Shown here piece after piece: positions 4,336 to 35,266 of a DNA stretch of 36,363 bases. This DNA is from a virus: positions 1-36,363 of IMG/VR virus record IMGVR_UViG_3300045972_000282; one strand, written 5' to 3'. Numbering within the stretch: position 1 is the stretch's first letter; each line of letters opens with the position of its first letter. The notes below the pieces were generated by a model. It was not told where the DNA came from. It made no database searches and saw only the letters and a list, made by a program, of their open reading frames with translations. A program made the position numbers and the translations under genes.

Positions 4336-4487
4336 TATGCCCCAATGAGACCTTGGCCGAGACATTACAGCCCGCAGGGCTGCACTCAGAGGTTTCAGGG
4401 GTTGCGCTCCCGGCCCCCGTTCCCTTCCTTCAGGATAAAGAAATCTCATCCAATCATCCTAAAGGGGGAAGTCATGGCACGAAATGA
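4332..4487 (+). CDS. Small hypothetical protein overlapping its neighbours
   Basis: A 51-codon ORF (MICPNETLAETLQPAGLHSE...) whose ATG overlaps the upstream TGA (ATGA) and whose end runs 14 bases into the minor-tail-Z-like gene. The ATGA overlap, typical of coupled phage genes, is the main support. The composition is ordinary and there is no recognised domain or membrane segment. If it is not a gene, this stretch is a 138-base spacer. Confidence 0.4.
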   Translation: MICPNETLAETLQPAGLHSEVSGVALPAPVPFLQDKEISSNHPKGGSHGTK

Positions 4488-5106
4488 GTTCGTATCGTTA
4501 CGTATTGAAGGGCTGAAGGAAGTAATCGAGGCACTCGATGCTAAGCAGGCACAGAGGGCATCAGCCAGCGCCATCAAGCGTATGACAGAGATGGTCAAGA
4601 CTGAAGCATCAACAGTCATTCGCAATGACTATGCAATCAAGAAGTCTGACCTTGACCCCTTCATGAAGGTACGACCACCACAGTGGAACAATCCTTCCTC
4701 CAGTATCACAGTGACAGGCAAGCCAATCAGCCTGATGTATTTCAATGCCAAGCAGTTGACTGCCCAGAATAGGGTGATCAGCCGGACACAGGGCAAGCAA
4801 CTGAAGCGCGCTTCCCGCTCCCTTGGTCAAGGTGTGACCTACCAGATTCTTAAAGGTCAGTCGAAGAACCTCCCCAACGCATTCATCCAGTACGACTCGC
4901 GCCTTCAACGCCTGATAGTGTTCTACCGTAAGGGCAAGGGCAGGGACACGATCAGATCAGTGAACGTGGTTACCATCGCCAGCCTCTTCGTCAACCCCAA
5001 GACAATGGACGCCATCCAGTCGAAGATCAACGACAACTGGAACCGGATCTTTAAGCATGAGCTGCTGGATGGACCGTATGGTCTGAACGGAAAGGCAAGG
5101 CGATGA
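4474..5106 (+). CDS. Prophage minor tail protein Z-like (tail completion)
   Basis: A 210-residue protein that I recognise as the phage minor tail protein Z family. An N-terminal alpha/beta start (FVSLRIEGLKEVIEAL) is followed by a helix rich in Ala/Lys, the AIKKSDLDPFM segment and a basic C-terminal half. The family length (lambda gpZ, about 190 residues) fits. In lambda, gpZ acts with gpU at the head-proximal end of the tail. Here it lies in the early region between a zinc-finger gene and the replication genes, about 18 kb from the tail module, which is odd. The ATG at 4474 has AAAGGGGGA five to ten bases upstream; an in-frame start at 4345 would add a low-quality leader. Confidence 0.75.
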   Translation: MARNEFVSLRIEGLKEVIEALDAKQAQRASASAIKRMTEMVKTEASTVIRNDYAIKKSDLDPFMKVRPPQWNNPSSSITVTGKPISLMYFNAKQLTAQNRVISRTQGKQLKRASRSLGQGVTYQILKGQSKNLPNAFIQYDSRLQRLIVFYRKGKGRDTIRSVNVVTIASLFVNPKTMDAIQSKINDNWNRIFKHELLDGPYGLNGKARR

Positions 5107-5237
5107 GAAAATCGCGGGTCCTTTCTGAGAGTAAAGGGTTACGGATCGCGAAGCCCGCGAGAAAACACTAGCTAAAGAATTTTTGGAATTGGAAATCAGG
5201 AAGTAGGACCGTTGCAAATTTTTGGAGTGGAGTGATT
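5107..5237 (+). other. 131-bp spacer with nested inverted repeats
   Basis: No convincing gene is present. Outer arms TCGCGGG (5112-5118) and CCCGCGA (5154-5160) enclose a smaller stem CCTTT/AAAGG (5120-5124/5133-5137). The end carries two GGAG motifs before the next start. A 22-codon ORF (5103-5171, basic) begins in the preceding stop codon and is in the same frame as the next gene, separated from it by a TAG. It could be a leader peptide but is unsupported. The element may be a structured mRNA leader. Confidence 0.3.
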
Positions 5238-5675
5238 ATGACGCAAGGAAACAGCAAGATAAACGGATTCACCCCGGCTGAAGCACTGGAAACCTTCAGC
5301 GGTTTTGCTCTCAGTCAGAGTGTTGTTTCTCCCTGGGTGTTTTCAAAACTGCATCCTAATAATGTTTTCACCTGTCCGGCCTGTGGCGATCCGATCAAGT
5401 CAGAGCGCTCTGCTGCCACCTTCAGATCAGGGGGCCGTGTTGCGTGCCTCTCCTGCAAAAAGTTTTTTACCAACCGCACCAATACCATATTGCATGCCTC
5501 TCAGCTGGAGTTCGAGCAGGTCTATCTGATCGCCGTGCTGCTGGCCTTCGCTGATCGTGTCGGTGCTGATCGCATCGCCGCCCGCCGTGAAATTGCTCGT
5601 ATCGTAGGACTCCATCCAGACAGCATCAAGAACTGGCAGGAAAACTTCACCGCCCTGGAGACCCCGCTTGTCTGA
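5238..5675 (+). CDS. Zinc-ribbon / helix-turn-helix DNA-binding protein
   Basis: A 145-residue protein with a zinc ribbon (C46-P-A-C49 ... C70-L-S-C73) followed by a helix-turn-helix (about 110-135; ARREIARIVGLHPDSIKNWQ). The combination resembles the N-terminal zinc-ribbon/HTH part of IS1 InsA-type proteins, but no transposase catalytic domain or terminal repeats are present. It is therefore more likely a phage regulator or replication accessory factor. The ATG at 5238 is preferred over the GTG at 5232 because GGAG sits at 5229-5232. Its end overlaps the helicase start by eight bases, tying it to the replication operon. Confidence 0.65.
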   Translation: MTQGNSKINGFTPAEALETFSGFALSQSVVSPWVFSKLHPNNVFTCPACGDPIKSERSAATFRSGGRVACLSCKKFFTNRTNTILHASQLEFEQVYLIAVLLAFADRVGADRIAARREIARIVGLHPDSIKNWQENFTALETPLV

Positions 5676-7314
5676 TCAATCCACTGAAAACAAGGTCATT
5701 GATATCAAGGCCGCTGTCGAAGAACGCAAGCGCCTTGAAGAGGCTGCGCTGGCCGGTAAGGAAAAGCCGGAAGGGCCACGCTTGACCAGCGAAAAAATAA
5801 AGCAGTGCCTTCAAGCCAACGAGCTGGGAGACGGAACGCTCTTCACTGCCCTGCATCATGGTTCGTTTCTGTACAACAAGACTCTGGACAAGTGGCTCAA
5901 GTGGGTCGGACACCACTGGGAATACGACTACATGGAAGAACGCTACCATGCTGTCGAATCTGTCGCCAAAGTCTACCTGGATGAAGCCTATGTACTCAAA
6001 GAAGATATCGAGCGGCTACGTGGTGAAGGCATCCGGGACGAAGCCAACCAACCTTTCCAGCTGCAGAAAGCATACTTCTCCCGGGTAAAACGCCTTCGCT
6101 CCAACTCCGGCGCGACCGCATGCCTGACCTACAGCCACCGGATAGAAGATCCCATCGCCATCAAAGGTGATGAGCTAGATACCAATCCTTGGCTGCTAAC
6201 TTGTACTAACGGCGTGCTTGATCTTAGAACCGGAGTCCTACGTGAAGGTCGCCCTGGTGATCACCTCCTGAAGTATGCCCCTCATGAATGGAAAGGCATT
6301 GACGAGCCATGCCCCGCCTTTGAATCGTTCCTGGCCAGCGCGCTCGATGGTGATCCGATGATGCAAGAAGACGAACGCGAGCAGCATCGGCTGGAAGTCA
6401 CCGCATTTATTCGCCGCGCTTTGGGGTATGGCATCACCGGACTATCCACAGAGCACATGTTTCTGGTCTTCAACGGACAGGGGCAAAACGGAAAAGGCGT
6501 CCTGGTTGAGACTCTTCGCTATGTACTCGGCCCGATCAGCGGACCCATCCCGGCAGAAATGCTACTCGATCAGGGCAGGGCGGCAACGCCATCGGGACCA
6601 ACTCCCCACATCATGGCGCTCAAAGGACTGCGTATTGCCTTCGCAAGTGAGACCGATGAAGGCCGTCGCTTCTCTCCTGGACAAGTCAAATGGTATTCCG
6701 GTGGTGACACCCTCAAAGGTCGTGACCTCAATGCCAAGGACTACATCGACTTTGACCCGACTCATCTACTGATCCTGCTGACCAACAACCTGCCACATGC
6801 ACCTGGTGATGACTTCGCTTTCTGGCAGCGGCTGAAACTGATCCCGTTCCAGTATTCATTTGTAGCCGAACCGGACCCAAGCAAGCGCAACCAGAAACAG
6901 CGCGACGACCAGCTCCGGGAGAAACTGAAATCGGAAGCCTCGGGAATCTTAGCCTGGTTGGTTCGTGGATGCCTAGAGTGGCAGAAGCAAGGGCTCAAAC
7001 CACCACAACAGGTCATAGGGGCCACGGAAGATTACCGGCTCAAGGAAGATACCATCAGCCAGTTTGTAGAAGAGTGTTGCGATGTAAAGGATGGTAACGA
7101 AGGCAACGCCACCGACATATATGTGATCTTCTCCCGCTGGTACAAGGTCAACGTGAGCAGCAAGAACAGCATCAAGCAGAAGAAGTTCGGGGAGATGCTG
7201 CACAAGCAGTACCGCAAAGAGAAGATCGGGGGCACCACACGGTACTTCGGATTGAAGCTGAAAGAGGGGATACACCAGCAGTACCCCGAGGAACTTGATA
7301 AACCAGGACGATGA
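5668..7314 (+). CDS. Phage replicative helicase, SF3 D5/P4-like
   Basis: A 548-residue protein starting with TTG (GGAG seven bases upstream) and overlapping the preceding gene. An N-terminal D5_N-like region (about 50-230; includes NPWLLTCTNGVLDLRTG) precedes an SF3 helicase ATPase. Its P-loop is GQGQNGKG (270-277, K276), a Walker B-like segment is LRIAFASETDEG (about 321-332), and the SF3 motif C region is LLTNNLPHAPGDD (about 370-382). This class unwinds phage or plasmid origins (P4 alpha C-terminal half, poxvirus D5). There is no primase domain in this protein; the CHC2/TOPRIM primase is encoded separately at 7663, on the other side of a candidate origin. It probably loads on the iterons directly downstream. 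Confidence 0.9.
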   Translation: MSDQSTENKVIDIKAAVEERKRLEEAALAGKEKPEGPRLTSEKIKQCLQANELGDGTLFTALHHGSFLYNKTLDKWLKWVGHHWEYDYMEERYHAVESVAKVYLDEAYVLKEDIERLRGEGIRDEANQPFQLQKAYFSRVKRLRSNSGATACLTYSHRIEDPIAIKGDELDTNPWLLTCTNGVLDLRTGVLREGRPGDHLLKYAPHEWKGIDEPCPAFESFLASALDGDPMMQEDEREQHRLEVTAFIRRALGYGITGLSTEHMFLVFNGQGQNGKGVLVETLRYVLGPISGPIPAEMLLDQGRAATPSGPTPHIMALKGLRIAFASETDEGRRFSPGQVKWYSGGDTLKGRDLNAKDYIDFDPTHLLILLTNNLPHAPGDDFAFWQRLKLIPFQYSFVAEPDPSKRNQKQRDDQLREKLKSEASGILAWLVRGCLEWQKQGLKPPQQVIGATEDYRLKEDTISQFVEECCDVKDGNEGNATDIYVIFSRWYKVNVSSKNSIKQKKFGEMLHKQYRKEKIGGTTRYFGLKLKEGIHQQYPEELDKPGR

Positions 7315-7662
7315 TGGCCGGAGCTTTTGTGGCTTCACTATAGGGTATGGGGGCAGTTATGCAGGACGGATAACAGGACAATAGGACGATAGCAGGACGG
7401 ACGCATTCCGTTTGTCCTGCTATTTAAACCGCTGAAACATAACAGCAAAATCTATGCATCAGGACGATAGGACGGACAACGCAGAAAGTCGGGGGGCTTT
7501 TAACCCCACTACAGGACGATAAGACTTTTATACATAATAGTCCTAATAGTCCTAAATAATAAAAAAGACTATAAAAACAAAGACTTTATATAGCAGGACA
7601 ATCGAAAAAACAAACGTCCTGCATCGTCCTAAAGTCCTATCAATCATCCTGGAAGGGTGTTT
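7315..7662. other. Candidate phage replication origin with 14 AGGAC iterons
   Basis: This 348-bp non-coding gap lies between the helicase and primase genes. AGGAC or its complement GTCCT occurs 14 times between 7363 and 7638 (starts 7363, 7375, 7383, 7394, 7414, 7461, 7469, 7513, 7540, 7549, 7595, 7616, 7626, 7634). About 0.5 would be expected by chance. The longer consensus is AGGACNATA; the left copies mostly point rightward and the right copies mostly leftward. A long inverted repeat has arms 7389-7398 and 7414-7423 (ATAGCAGGAC/GTCCTGCTAT). An AT-rich tract (about 7550-7592) could be the unwinding element. The last bases hold the primase ribosome site. Origin function is inferred. Confidence 0.7.
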
Positions 7663-9090
7663 ATGAATCTCGAATCAAGAGCAGCTCAAAACGGTCGCAC
7701 CTACAAACGGGTTTCCAACATCCATGGTGGCGAATACCACGGCCCGTGCCCCAGCTGCGGAGGTAACGACCGCTTCCATATCTGGCCGTCACAGGGCGAC
7801 CATGGGACGTTCTGGTGTCGATCCTGCAGACTTGGTGGAGATGCCATCGAATACCTGATGAAGATCGAAGGGCTGTCGTTTCCTGCCGCCTGTAAGGAAG
7901 TCGGCAAAGAGATCAGCGAGCAGGAAGAGTACCAGGCTCCAAAATTCAAACGTCCAGCTACCGCTGCCGAATCATTCACACCCCGCGCAACCGTTGCCGC
8001 TTCCGACTTGTGGATCGAGCACGCCACTAAACTGGTTGACTGGTCCCATGAGCAGCTCCTTGCAAACGATATGCAGATGGTTTGGCTTGCCTCCCGAGGA
8101 TTGTCTATCGAAGCCGTAAAAGCGTACCGACTCGGCTGGAACGCCGGTGAAAATGGAAAAGATCTGTACCGTGCCCGTGAAGCCTGGGGACTCGATACCG
8201 TCCTGAAGGAAGATGGCAAAACCAAAAAGAAACTCTGGCTGCCAATCGGACTCACGATTCCTTACTACATCGACGGCACGCTGCAGCGCATCCGGATCAG
8301 AAGACCGGAAGGGGAGCCAAGATATTACCTGGTGCCTGGAAGCAACATGGCCCCCATGGTTCTCGGTGCCGATTCCCGTGCTTTTGTCGTAGTCGAAAGT
8401 GAGCTTGATGCTCTCCTGGTGCATCATCTGGCCAGTGATCTGATCGGGGCGGTCTCCCAGGGTAACAGCACGGCAAAGCCGGATGCCTTCGCGGCAACCG
8501 CTTTGTCCAGTTCGCTCTCCATCCTGGTGGCCCTTGATAGTGACGATGCTGGGATGAACGCCTCCATCTGGTGGAAAAAACATTTCCCGCAGGCAGAGCG
8601 CTGGCCGGTACCGGTCGGAAAAGATCCGGGCGATGCCTTCAAAGCTGGCCTCAATATCCGTGAATGGATTCTGGCAGGATTGCCGCCGGTCTTCTCCGTA
8701 TCGGATAAACCGGACACCCCTGCAAGCCTCCCCCGTGTTCAGGACAATTCTGGAGCGTCCGTAGTTGCTCCTGCTGCCGAGACCGAACAGCCGGGCGAGC
8801 TGCTCACCAGAACAGCCACCACCTACACCGCAAAGGATGGCCGCCGTCTCACTGTCACCGATAACGTTTCCGAGTATGCCCGTCTGGTTGCCCTGGGCGA
8901 AATCGTTTTCGACTCTAAAGAAATCGCCCACGTAAAAACGCTCGGAGCTGATCAGGATCTAGCCGCCCGCTTTCTGGATGCCAAGCAGATGTTTCCCGGC
9001 AGCCGGATCATCGCATCAGATCCTGATTACCAAGCACCGACCGAATCTGACCGCACTCGCTACCAGGGCAAATACCACAACGCAAAATAG
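7663..9090 (+). CDS. DNA primase, CHC2 zinc finger plus TOPRIM
   Basis: A 475-residue primase. The DnaG-type zinc finger (C29, C32, C52, C55; GPCPSCGGNDRF ... TFWCRSCRLGG) binds template. A central region (about 110-235) precedes the TOPRIM catalytic fold, with E245 (VVVESELDAL) and D292/D294 (ALDSDDAGM), then a KDPGDAF segment (about 322-328). The C-terminal about 130 residues after TOPRIM are not recognised. It should prime phage DNA synthesis for the host polymerase, together with the SF3 helicase encoded upstream. GGAAGGG five bases before the ATG supports this start over a GTG at 7657 that overlaps the ribosome site. The clamp gene follows after eight bases. Confidence 0.92.
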   Translation: MNLESRAAQNGRTYKRVSNIHGGEYHGPCPSCGGNDRFHIWPSQGDHGTFWCRSCRLGGDAIEYLMKIEGLSFPAACKEVGKEISEQEEYQAPKFKRPATAAESFTPRATVAASDLWIEHATKLVDWSHEQLLANDMQMVWLASRGLSIEAVKAYRLGWNAGENGKDLYRAREAWGLDTVLKEDGKTKKKLWLPIGLTIPYYIDGTLQRIRIRRPEGEPRYYLVPGSNMAPMVLGADSRAFVVVESELDALLVHHLASDLIGAVSQGNSTAKPDAFAATALSSSLSILVALDSDDAGMNASIWWKKHFPQAERWPVPVGKDPGDAFKAGLNIREWILAGLPPVFSVSDKPDTPASLPRVQDNSGASVVAPAAETEQPGELLTRTATTYTAKDGRRLTVTDNVSEYARLVALGEIVFDSKEIAHVKTLGADQDLAARFLDAKQMFPGSRIIASDPDYQAPTESDRTRYQGKYHNAK

Positions 9091-9098
9091 GAGCCACC

Positions 9099-10259
9099 AT
9101 GAAATTCCACGTACCACAAAAAGAACTTTCAAACGTACTGAATCGCTGTGCCGCCATAGCATCTAAGCGGTCAACGTCGATGCCGATCCTTTCCCATGTC
9201 ATGCTCACTCCTGGGGAATCCTGCCTGAAGGTGCACGCCACTGATCTGGAGATCGGGTTCAGTGCGGCCATAGATGGGCTGGTGTGGGATGAGGAACGAT
9301 CTGAATCAAGCATACTACTCCCTGCCAAGACTCTGAATGAATGCGTCAAGCTGATACCTTCGGGAGAAGTAGTTTTTTATATCAGCGACTGCACTGCCAA
9401 GATCACTGGGGGTACCGTCTCGTTCACCTTGTCGGGGTTGGATGCATCAGAGTACCCCACTGCTGCAATAGAGCAGGGCGAAGAGCTGACCATCGATATC
9501 AGCAAACTTGTCAAAACCATCAAGCATGTCGCGTACTGCCAATCGACAGATGAAACGAAGCACACATTAAACGGAAGTTTCCTGCAGCTGGAGCACGATC
9601 TGGAAGGCGAACTGTTCGCGGTGTTATCAGCAACCGACGGCCATCGTTTGTGCCTCGATACGGAAGGGGTCTTCATCGGTTCGGATGAGGATGTCAGAGT
9701 CCCGCAGGAAATCCCCGCTGCCCTGCTTAAAGGGGTGATCGTACCGGCCAAAGGAATCGCAGAGCTGACCAAGCTATCCTGTTCAGATCCTGCTGTCCTC
9801 GGAGTTGTTGGTAACACCCTGTATGTCTCCCTGGGTGATGAGCGGTTGTCGATTCAATTAGTGGAAGGGGAGTTCCCGCCAGTGGCACGGGTGATACCAC
9901 AGAACCCGATCCACACAATCATTCTCAACCGTAGCCCGTTACTTGATGCCCTGGAGCGCTGCCGCGTTCTTACCAACAAAGAAAGTAGACGCATCAACTT
10001 GATGCCTGCAAATGGTGTTGTCGGTGTGTCAACAGCACAGCCACAAATAGGAGCTGAAGCAAACGACCATGTGACCGCAGAGTTTACCGATGATCCACCG
10101 GCCATGGCCTTCAATGTCGATTATATGATGCAGGCGCTCAGCAACATCAGCAGCAACCAGATTGAAATCAAGATCACCGACGCACTCTCTCCGATCATCA
10201 TCAACCCTGTGGGCAGCGACTTCCCGCAGGCAATCGTAATGCCGATGAGGGCTGAATAA
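9099..10259 (+). CDS. dnaN: DNA polymerase III beta subunit (sliding clamp), phage-encoded
   Basis: A 386-residue protein of normal bacterial clamp length (about 366-390). It starts MKFHVPQKELSNVLNRCAAI and contains KRSTSMPILSHVML, ATDLEIGF, LSATDGHRL and a C-terminus SDFPQAIVMPMRAE that matches the bacterial VVMPMR ending. Three clamp subdomains are expected; the dimer encircles DNA and tethers the polymerase. The ribosome site GGAGCC precedes the ATG. No DNA polymerase is encoded in the element, so this clamp presumably recruits the host replicase or phage-specific clients. It is sandwiched between the primase and a gene with a clamp-binding-like peptide. Confidence 0.93.
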   Translation: MKFHVPQKELSNVLNRCAAIASKRSTSMPILSHVMLTPGESCLKVHATDLEIGFSAAIDGLVWDEERSESSILLPAKTLNECVKLIPSGEVVFYISDCTAKITGGTVSFTLSGLDASEYPTAAIEQGEELTIDISKLVKTIKHVAYCQSTDETKHTLNGSFLQLEHDLEGELFAVLSATDGHRLCLDTEGVFIGSDEDVRVPQEIPAALLKGVIVPAKGIAELTKLSCSDPAVLGVVGNTLYVSLGDERLSIQLVEGEFPPVARVIPQNPIHTIILNRSPLLDALERCRVLTNKESRRINLMPANGVVGVSTAQPQIGAEANDHVTAEFTDDPPAMAFNVDYMMQALSNISSNQIEIKITDALSPIIINPVGSDFPQAIVMPMRAE

Positions 10260-34180: not shown

Positions 34181-34513
34181 ATGACCGAGAACGTATCTCA
34201 CGCCATCATATATATGGCCGGGGGAATCACCGCGCAGGCTCTTAATATGATCATACGAGTGATAAGGGATTGCCTAAAAAGCAGGGCACGATACCGGATG
34301 AGACAGAAGCACAGACATGCCAGATCCACAGACACCATCAACAATCCAAATAACTCTGGCACAACTGTTTTCGATTCTGGGGGCGGTGGTGTCCCCGGTG
34401 CTTCTGCTACTCGGGTACCTCTGGACACTTACTGTAGAAAGAATCAAAAAGACGGAAACCCGCCTCGACGAAGGGTCGAAGACCATCAACGGATTGAAGG
34501 TGTCGGTTGCTGA
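34181..34513 (+). CDS. Basic hypothetical protein overlapping the coiled-coil membrane gene
   Basis: A 110-codon ORF with a good ribosome site (TAGGAGCGA). The first 45 residues (MTENVSHAIIYMAGGITAQAL ... KSRARYRMRQKHRH) include a weak hydrophobic segment and a basic patch. The remaining 65 codons overlap the gene at 34317 in another frame and look like a by-product of that coding sequence (Gly/Pro/Arg-rich). It probably starts for real; the importance of its C-terminus is doubtful. Confidence 0.4.
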   Translation: MTENVSHAIIYMAGGITAQALNMIIRVIRDCLKSRARYRMRQKHRHARSTDTINNPNNSGTTVFDSGGGGVPGASATRVPLDTYCRKNQKDGNPPRRRVEDHQRIEGVGC

Positions 34514-34676
34514 ACACACTAACGATATTGACCATGTTGTCTTGTCTATGCGCGACCACTATCAATCGTCCGACGAATATCGGCATGAAACAGATGAAAA
34601 GATATCCGGAATAAAAAGCGACGTAAAATCTATACAGACCCGCTGCATTGAACGGGAAAAGGCAGGGAAAACATGA
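34317..34676 (+). CDS. Membrane-anchored coiled-coil protein
   Basis: A 119-residue protein with one transmembrane helix (about 12-36; LAQLFSILGAVVSPVLLLLGYLW) followed by a heptad-like polar tail (ERIKKTETRLDEGSKTINGLKVSVAEHTNDIDHVVLSM ...). The layout resembles XhlA/haemolysin-type or holin-associated phage proteins. It lies immediately before the putative endolysin (four-base overlap, ATGA). The ribosome site is weak, so coupling to the overlapping upstream ORF is likely. A role in lysis is inferred. Confidence 0.65.
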   Translation: MPDPQTPSTIQITLAQLFSILGAVVSPVLLLLGYLWTLTVERIKKTETRLDEGSKTINGLKVSVAEHTNDIDHVVLSMRDHYQSSDEYRHETDEKISGIKSDVKSIQTRCIEREKAGKT

Positions 34677-35266
34677 AATCAATTAACGAACTATTCCGGC
34701 TGGTGATCTTGGTCAATGAGCTGGACAACAATACAAAACTGGCCTTCACCTTTTCTGATCCGGACGGCGTCCGTTCGGGGAAGTCCGGTTGGTCATTCGG
34801 GGTATGCCAGTTCGATACCAGAAACAATAACCAGGCGCTCGCTTGTCTGGCTGAATGTGGTTTCAACTCCGGTGAGATTCACGGTGTTGTCGACCAGACT
34901 ATTGATGTCCGTCCCTTTGCTGCTCGATTAAAGGAGTATTCGGACATTATCGCAAAGTATGATGAAGCACAGCTTTCCCGCTGCATCTTTTCCGCCATGG
35001 ATTTTTACGCCCGCCACAGTATTCCCGTAACCGATACCGGTGCCATCCTGGCCAGTGCTGATTACGTCAACCAGTACGGTTCTCAGGGTGATGGCTTCGC
35101 GGCTTACATGAAGAGCCTGGGGCGTCCTGTTGTGGCCAATGATATTTTAAAATTCAAACTGGAACACACAGTTTATGGCAAGCGCTGCCCAAAGGATTGC
35201 CAACGACGGTTTGATAACCTGGTTGATATCCTGGACAGGGAAGGAATCGAATATGGCCGGGGGTGA
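34673..35266 (+). CDS. Putative endolysin (lysozyme-like)
   Basis: A 197-residue protein. It contains FSDPDGVRSGKSGWSFGVCQFDTRNNNQAL (about residues 27-56), a GxxSxGxxQxD pattern like the substrate-cleft segment of lysozyme/transglycosylase-type phage enzymes. The rest is helical, with RCPKDCQRRFDNLVDIL near the end. There is no signal peptide, so export would depend on a holin. It lies between membrane proteins and the spanins, where an endolysin is expected and no other candidate exists. The catalytic Glu cannot be assigned by eye (E16 and D30 are options). Confidence 0.5.
   Translation: MKSINELFRLVILVNELDNNTKLAFTFSDPDGVRSGKSGWSFGVCQFDTRNNNQALACLAECGFNSGEIHGVVDQTIDVRPFAARLKEYSDIIAKYDEAQLSRCIFSAMDFYARHSIPVTDTGAILASADYVNQYGSQGDGFAAYMKSLGRPVVANDILKFKLEHTVYGKRCPKDCQRRFDNLVDILDREGIEYGRG

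Follow-up and report, generated by a model that had tools for sequence, protein, structure and literature searches.

The array of short repeats between the helicase and primase genes of this virus is very probably the replication origin of a temperate phage, and belongs to a kind in which iterons are linked to the gene of a helicase. The window analysed is the whole virus record of 36,363 bases, which carries an integrase, HTH regulators, a helicase-primase-clamp module and head genes. A sequence-only reading had put forward positions 7363-7638 as an origin candidate. That proposal is now supported by conservation of the array beside the helicase gene, by the likeness of its geometry to the origins Sfi21 and P4 crr, and by an AT-rich patch of the type expected of a melting site.

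The array and flanking genes

Exactly 14 AGGAC or GTCCT cores are found in the 276 bp, the number originally reported. The expectation is 0.33-0.46, compared with about 0.5 as first given, and the Poisson probability is 1.5e-18 to 1.2e-16. AGGAC forms the densest pentamer cluster of the window and no other pentamer reaches 14 copies per 276 bp. The suggestion that most cores extend to AGGACNATA is correct if one mismatch is allowed, there being four exact copies (7375, 7383, 7461 and 7513) and five with a single mismatch, but does not hold for exact copies. A 15th AGGAC (7305-7309, plus strand) is placed inside the 3′ end of the helicase gene and is also kept in four of the compared loci, L004, L005, L007 and L092. 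A degenerate copy, AGGAT, occupies 7646-7650 on the minus strand.

The flanks are as previously described. On the plus strand, 5668-7314 encodes an SF3/D5_N helicase (Pfam D5_N 3.1e-27; PHROG primase/helicase families), the likely initiator, and on the 3′ side of the array 7657-9090, also on the plus strand, encodes a DnaG-type primase with a Zn ribbon, for which the ATG at 7663, behind GGAAGG, is the likelier start. Helicase and primase are thus two separate genes with the array between them, and not the fused alpha protein of P4-type systems. Directly after the primase gene is a full-length gene for a β-clamp (DnaN-like, 9099-10259), with relatives in L004, L005 (start only), L007, L009 and L091. 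Ahead of the helicase, and overlapping its start, is a gene (5232-5675) for a protein with a zinc ribbon and an HTH-like segment, to which no family is assigned; an unrelated small ORF occupies its place in L005. The replication region also includes a minor-tail or neck-type protein (4345-5106; Pfam Minor_tail_Z, phrog_27), distant from the other structural genes; relatives of this protein are located in the corresponding place upstream of the helicase in L004, L006, L083, L091, L092, L093, L107 and L135.

Order within the array

The orientation of the cores had been described as tending to switch from rightward to leftward. The switch is real but was understated, as 12 of the 14 cores can be matched, each with a core of opposite orientation, into six pairs that share one axis (7506.5), with a precision of 1 bp. 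The pairs are 7375/7634, 7383/7626, 7394/7616, 7414/7595, 7461/7549 and 7469/7540, and the two positions of each add up to 15009 or 15010. Among randomised arrays, 20,000 in which positions were drawn at random and 20,000 in which spacings and strands were shuffled, not one reached six such pairs.

The cores are arranged in blocks, in the order A(++), B(+-), C(++), C′(--), B′(+-) and A′(--). Block A (7375-7387, plus strand) is a tandem pair with an 8-bp period. Block B (7394-7418) consists of a plus iteron at 7394 and a minus iteron at 7414, 20 bp apart, and forms a local inverted repeat. Block C (7461-7473, plus strand) is the inner tandem pair, again with an 8-bp period, and provides the left half of a widely conserved core. 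On the other side of the axis are C′ (7540-7553, minus strand), the inner inverted tandem pair with a 9-bp period, B′ (7595-7620), with a plus iteron at 7595 and a minus iteron at 7616, 21 bp apart, and A′ (7626-7638, minus strand), an inverted tandem pair with an 8-bp period. The steps between cores are 8, 11, 20, 47 and 8 on the left and, from the outside inward, 8, 10, 21, 46 and 9 on the right. The outermost left iteron (7363-7367, plus strand) has the degenerate AGGAT as its dyad partner. The core at 7513-7517 (plus strand) is off the axis, some 27 bp left of C′; positions listed for seven relatives place a counterpart single copy 21-28 bp left of C′.

An inverted repeat noted inside the array is confirmed, with arms at 7389-7403 and 7409-7423 (87%). 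It belongs to a nested series, however, and in the largest member the arms are at 7362-7390 and 7623-7651. The AT-rich stretch, which had been called the centre of the array, is present but lies to one side, with the 7540/7549 pair to its left and 7595 to its right. No 41-mer in the window is richer in AT than the one found here between C′ and B′ (7553-7593, 0.85 AT), which represents a candidate unwinding element. The patch recurs at the same position in relatives.

Inverted repeats, if transcribed, could act as a structured RNA or, as DNA, a cruciform, a long hairpin controlling expression of helicase and primase or copy number. The array transcript does fold far better than shuffled sequences (z -7.25) and the arrays of many relatives fold strongly too, but any mirror-image array of iterons will fold, and the inversion of the iterons explains the strong folding such that a hairpin need not be invoked. 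The arms of the hairpin consist of tandem repeats of 8-9 bp (39 of 62 loci, with none at shifts of 6-7), for which a stem has no need. Mismatches in the arms display no bias to G-U (11 G-U, 37 other). The fold leaves the inter-block spacers unpaired, and yet their lengths match on the two sides (47 and 46 bp). The right end of the L067 array is all-forward, and Rfam gave no match at E ≤ 1. We judge a role as RNA or cruciform to be very unlikely, albeit the least unlikely of the alternatives to an origin.

Conservation in related phages

The array is carried by helicase relatives in viral contigs (L004, L005 and L007, 71-81% identity), by Desulfuromonadales genomes (L091 and L092, helicase identity 73-75%) and by L009, a locus reached via the primase. 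A scan of the viral collection for the tandem-pair DNA pattern, with no protein input, gave 61 stretches. Eight new loci found in this way are flanked by relatives of the helicase and the primase (L067, L059, L032, L043, L083, L072, L062 and L084), with helicase identities of 38-63%. Pattern matches in two viral contigs, L030 (2614-2670) and L088 (1848-1904), comprise six same-strand AGGAC within about 55 bp; no helicase or primase relative was detected at either.

There are six dyad pairs in L007, five in L004 and four each in L005, L092, L083 and L059. Few exact AGGAC pairs are seen in L091 and L009, in the former because many of the cores are AGGAT. The array begins at or just past the helicase stop (7314) and the same is true of the relatives. 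It is kept despite the insertion of a small ORF, on the helicase side in L007, L009 and L092 and on the primase side in L005. Loss of the repeats from related phages had been named as an observation that would count against an origin; they are retained beside the helicase in relatives, with the exception of L006 (7171-7600) and L093 (5536-6150), where the helicase identity is 50% and there is neither a primase relative after the helicase nor an iteron dyad.

The pattern of conservation bears on a further possibility, that the array serves in partition, as a centromere-like site, or in packaging. Sites of the parS type and pac sites also hold tandem and inverted short repeats. Against this, none of the genes examined beside the array was identified as ParA/ParB-type, and the terminase is 5 kb distant. 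In the relatives it is the helicase gene that accompanies the array, and an AT-rich patch is characteristic of melting sites. Of the alternatives considered we regard this as the least likely.

A geometry independent of the repeat word

In more distant relatives the word changes, and examples include TGGACNAT, GGAAGATT, GGGAGGAT, ATGACGAT, GGACAGAT, GTTCAGAC, ATATGAT and CTGACAAT among others, while the tandem-then-inverted layout just after the helicase stop stays. The geometry was expressed with no word given, as four 6-mers that make a tandem pair with a period of 8 or 9 and, 45-85 bp on, the inverted copy of that pair. The maximum score is 36, a cut-off of 31 was applied, and the region downstream of the helicase was limited to 480 bp. 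A version requiring equal periods missed the window (17/23), whereas the four-word score allows 8 or 9.

Scores of at least 31 were obtained in 50 of 86 regions just after D5_N/SF3 helicase genes as against 1 of 738 control windows drawn from those loci. The loci were taken one per species and are not fully independent. The array of the window scores 33, and L007 and L009, which fall beyond the 480-bp limit and are additional to the 50, score 36 and 33. A scan for the dyad fails in about 40% of loci. The 86 loci had also shaped the score, and a held-out test was therefore carried out on D5_N genes of other classes, the class names being inferred from the named loci used as centres. This gave 9/27 versus 0/134 for Bacilli and 4/7 versus 0/35 for Gammaproteobacteria. 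In actinomycete genomes there was no enrichment (2/13 versus 3/65).

Positive controls were recovered, the annotated Sfi21 origin with 36/36 and P4 crr with 33/36. The second P4 origin scores 30, which is not above its shuffles. Mycobacterium phages Yuna and CrimD, AcaML1, Arthrobacter GlobiWarming and Pseudomonas MR14 beat all 30 of their shuffles; the score of 33 for Findley is equalled by two of 30. No significant score was obtained for phiSASD1, Shaeky, Mysterium and BAjuniper (primase/helicase followed directly by their own DNA polymerase I), nor for Warda, GMA4 and Javan159. A match in DS11, located away from the visible GGGAGT repeats of that phage, was left uncounted.

Long gaps follow the primase/helicase gene in CrimD (L178, 2671-3079) and Yuna (L175, 2850-3284); in record NC_014459 the CrimD gap occupies 47,921-48,327. 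These gaps are filled with GGCACAGAT words in tandem-plus-inverted order and are predicted origins, of which we found no mention in the part of the cluster K mycobacteriophage paper available to us.

On balance we lean towards the view that helicase-linked origins share a geometry that does not depend on the word, namely facing tandem pairs with a period of 8-9 bp, 45-95 bp apart and beside an AT-rich patch, and that this is kept across several bacterial phyla with the word rewritten in each lineage. Since the geometry is kept while the word is rewritten, the origins of many unmapped phages, CrimD and Yuna among them, should then be predictable from sequence alone. The array of the window would be an extended, six-pair form of the same geometry.

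Most phages with D5-type helicases have origins that are apparently unmapped. If the geometry is the code, the repeat word need not be known in order to predict the origins of many phages and prophages. The drift of the word under a fixed spacing also offers natural material with which to study DNA recognition and the paired placement of a self-loading ring helicase.

Recognition of the array and a possible mechanism

Which protein reads the array? The products named 5238, 5668 and 10260 had been suggested as candidates. Comparison favours the 5668 helicase, which we infer binds through a C-terminal winged helix, and speaks against the other two. The 5232 zinc-ribbon/HTH protein shows just 28% identity in L007 and is not detected in L005, both of which have the array, and most loci with the geometry lack relatives of the 5232 and 10260 products. 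Clamp relatives are likewise absent from most of these loci, and the geometry is kept at places with no detectable primase relative (L101, L127, L130, L137, L158 and L160, for example). The helicase is present at every compared locus by selection.

The same observations are relevant to the idea that the array is a cluster of operators for a phage repressor or activator (the 2089 or 2567 HTH protein, or the 5232 product) controlling the primase and later genes. The array does precede the primase gene and the phage encodes several HTH proteins. The persistence of the array where the 5232 protein is divergent or not detected is difficult to reconcile with such a role, as are the missing relatives of 5232 and 10260. 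In addition, no σ70-like promoter or terminator was found in the array, and a tandem-plus-inverted geometry downstream of helicases that have no repressor in common is a poor fit for an operator. We consider regulation by operators very unlikely.

The AlphaFold2 (AF2) model of the 5668 helicase has a pLDDT of 85.6 and residues 446-540, approximately, are predicted to form a winged helix (Pox_D5-like). In AF2 models the order of elements at the C-terminus is H-b-H-H-b-b, and Pox_D5 is matched in 14 of 16 relatives. Foldseek matches the helicase fold to ASFV PrimPol and to poxvirus D5/E5. The C-terminus gives a weak match to the RFX winged helix (E 0.025, TMt 0.66); the P4 alpha domain is not among the matches listed for it. 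The distance between words tracks the whole helicase and not clearly the C-terminal domain in particular. The partial Mantel value for word against C-terminal domain beyond the helicase core is 0.15, with 6 of 300 permutations as high, and that for the core given the C-terminal domain is 0.33.

With respect to mechanism, the C-terminal winged helix of the 5668 helicase may bind the AGGACNAT words, and the two mirror-image halves of the array would position a pair of helicase hexamers in head-to-head orientation. Remodelling driven by ATP might then melt the AT-rich patch at 7553-7593, following which the 7657 primase and the 9099 clamp, with a host polymerase, could start synthesis. A complex of fixed geometry would explain why the word drifts together with the helicase while the spacing is kept. 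The GC skew has no clear switch at the array.

Comparison with known origins

Iteron origins of plasmids that depend on DnaA have DnaA boxes beside the iterons. There is no exact TTATNCACA beside the array and a single site with one mismatch, at 7528; such one-mismatch sites are no commoner in the window than expected by chance. An origin of this type was rejected. The sequence-level characteristics of a helicase-linked iteron origin are present. The gene of a D5_N/SF3 initiator has the putative origin directly downstream, short iterons occur in oppositely oriented sets, an AT-rich region is flanked by C′ and B′, and the C-terminal winged-helix domain is predicted.

This kind of origin is already known, from P4, Sfi21, PICI/SaPI and Cch2. 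The AGGAC unit itself does seem to be undescribed, as first stated, but the type of origin is not new. We found no description of the AGGAC unit or of a cluster K mycobacteriophage origin in the literature searched, which covered few subscription journals and from which earlier reports may be missing.

The Sfi21 origin (NC_000872, feature 34487-34784) is, like the array, AT-rich and directly downstream of a primase/helicase gene, and has a tandem pair, TTAGTTACTTAGTTAC, facing its inverted copy across a gap of 71. The word is different and the AT-rich run of Sfi21 is between the two pairs, whereas the most AT-rich stretch of the window is outside the inner dyad, between C′ and B′. In P4 crr the annotated type-1 repeats, a tandem plus pair and then minus copies, are directly downstream of the gene for the alpha primase-helicase, and binding of the repeats by a winged helix of alpha has been reported (cited in PMC4234260). 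P4 differs in that alpha fuses primase and helicase, in the 120-bp duplicated crr with a distant second origin, and in the word.

The pri-rep origins of PICI/SaPI, compared here by published description, are downstream of Rep, have an AT-rich region with one of two iteron sets on either side, and are able to drive the replication of plasmids in E. coli (PMC6092414). They belong to satellite islands and have different words. The layout was described as peculiar to such islands (PMC6092414); our results suggest, with the PICI side taken from that description, that the class to which it belongs is wider and takes in full phages.

SCCmec Cch2 is, like the 5668 product, a stand-alone D5_N helicase with a separate primase, and through its C-terminal domain it binds AAGTG iterons of 5 nt that immediately follow its gene (PMC7581432). 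The putative origin of Cch2 has only three of these iterons in one 23-bp stretch, and the primer is provided by an A-family polymerase pair, not by a DnaG-type primase (PMC7581432). Set beside these systems, the new features are the AGGAC unit, an extended dyad of six pairs that separates the helicase gene from the primase gene, the location of the AT-rich patch beyond the inner dyad, and a geometry that recurs across phyla without a fixed word.
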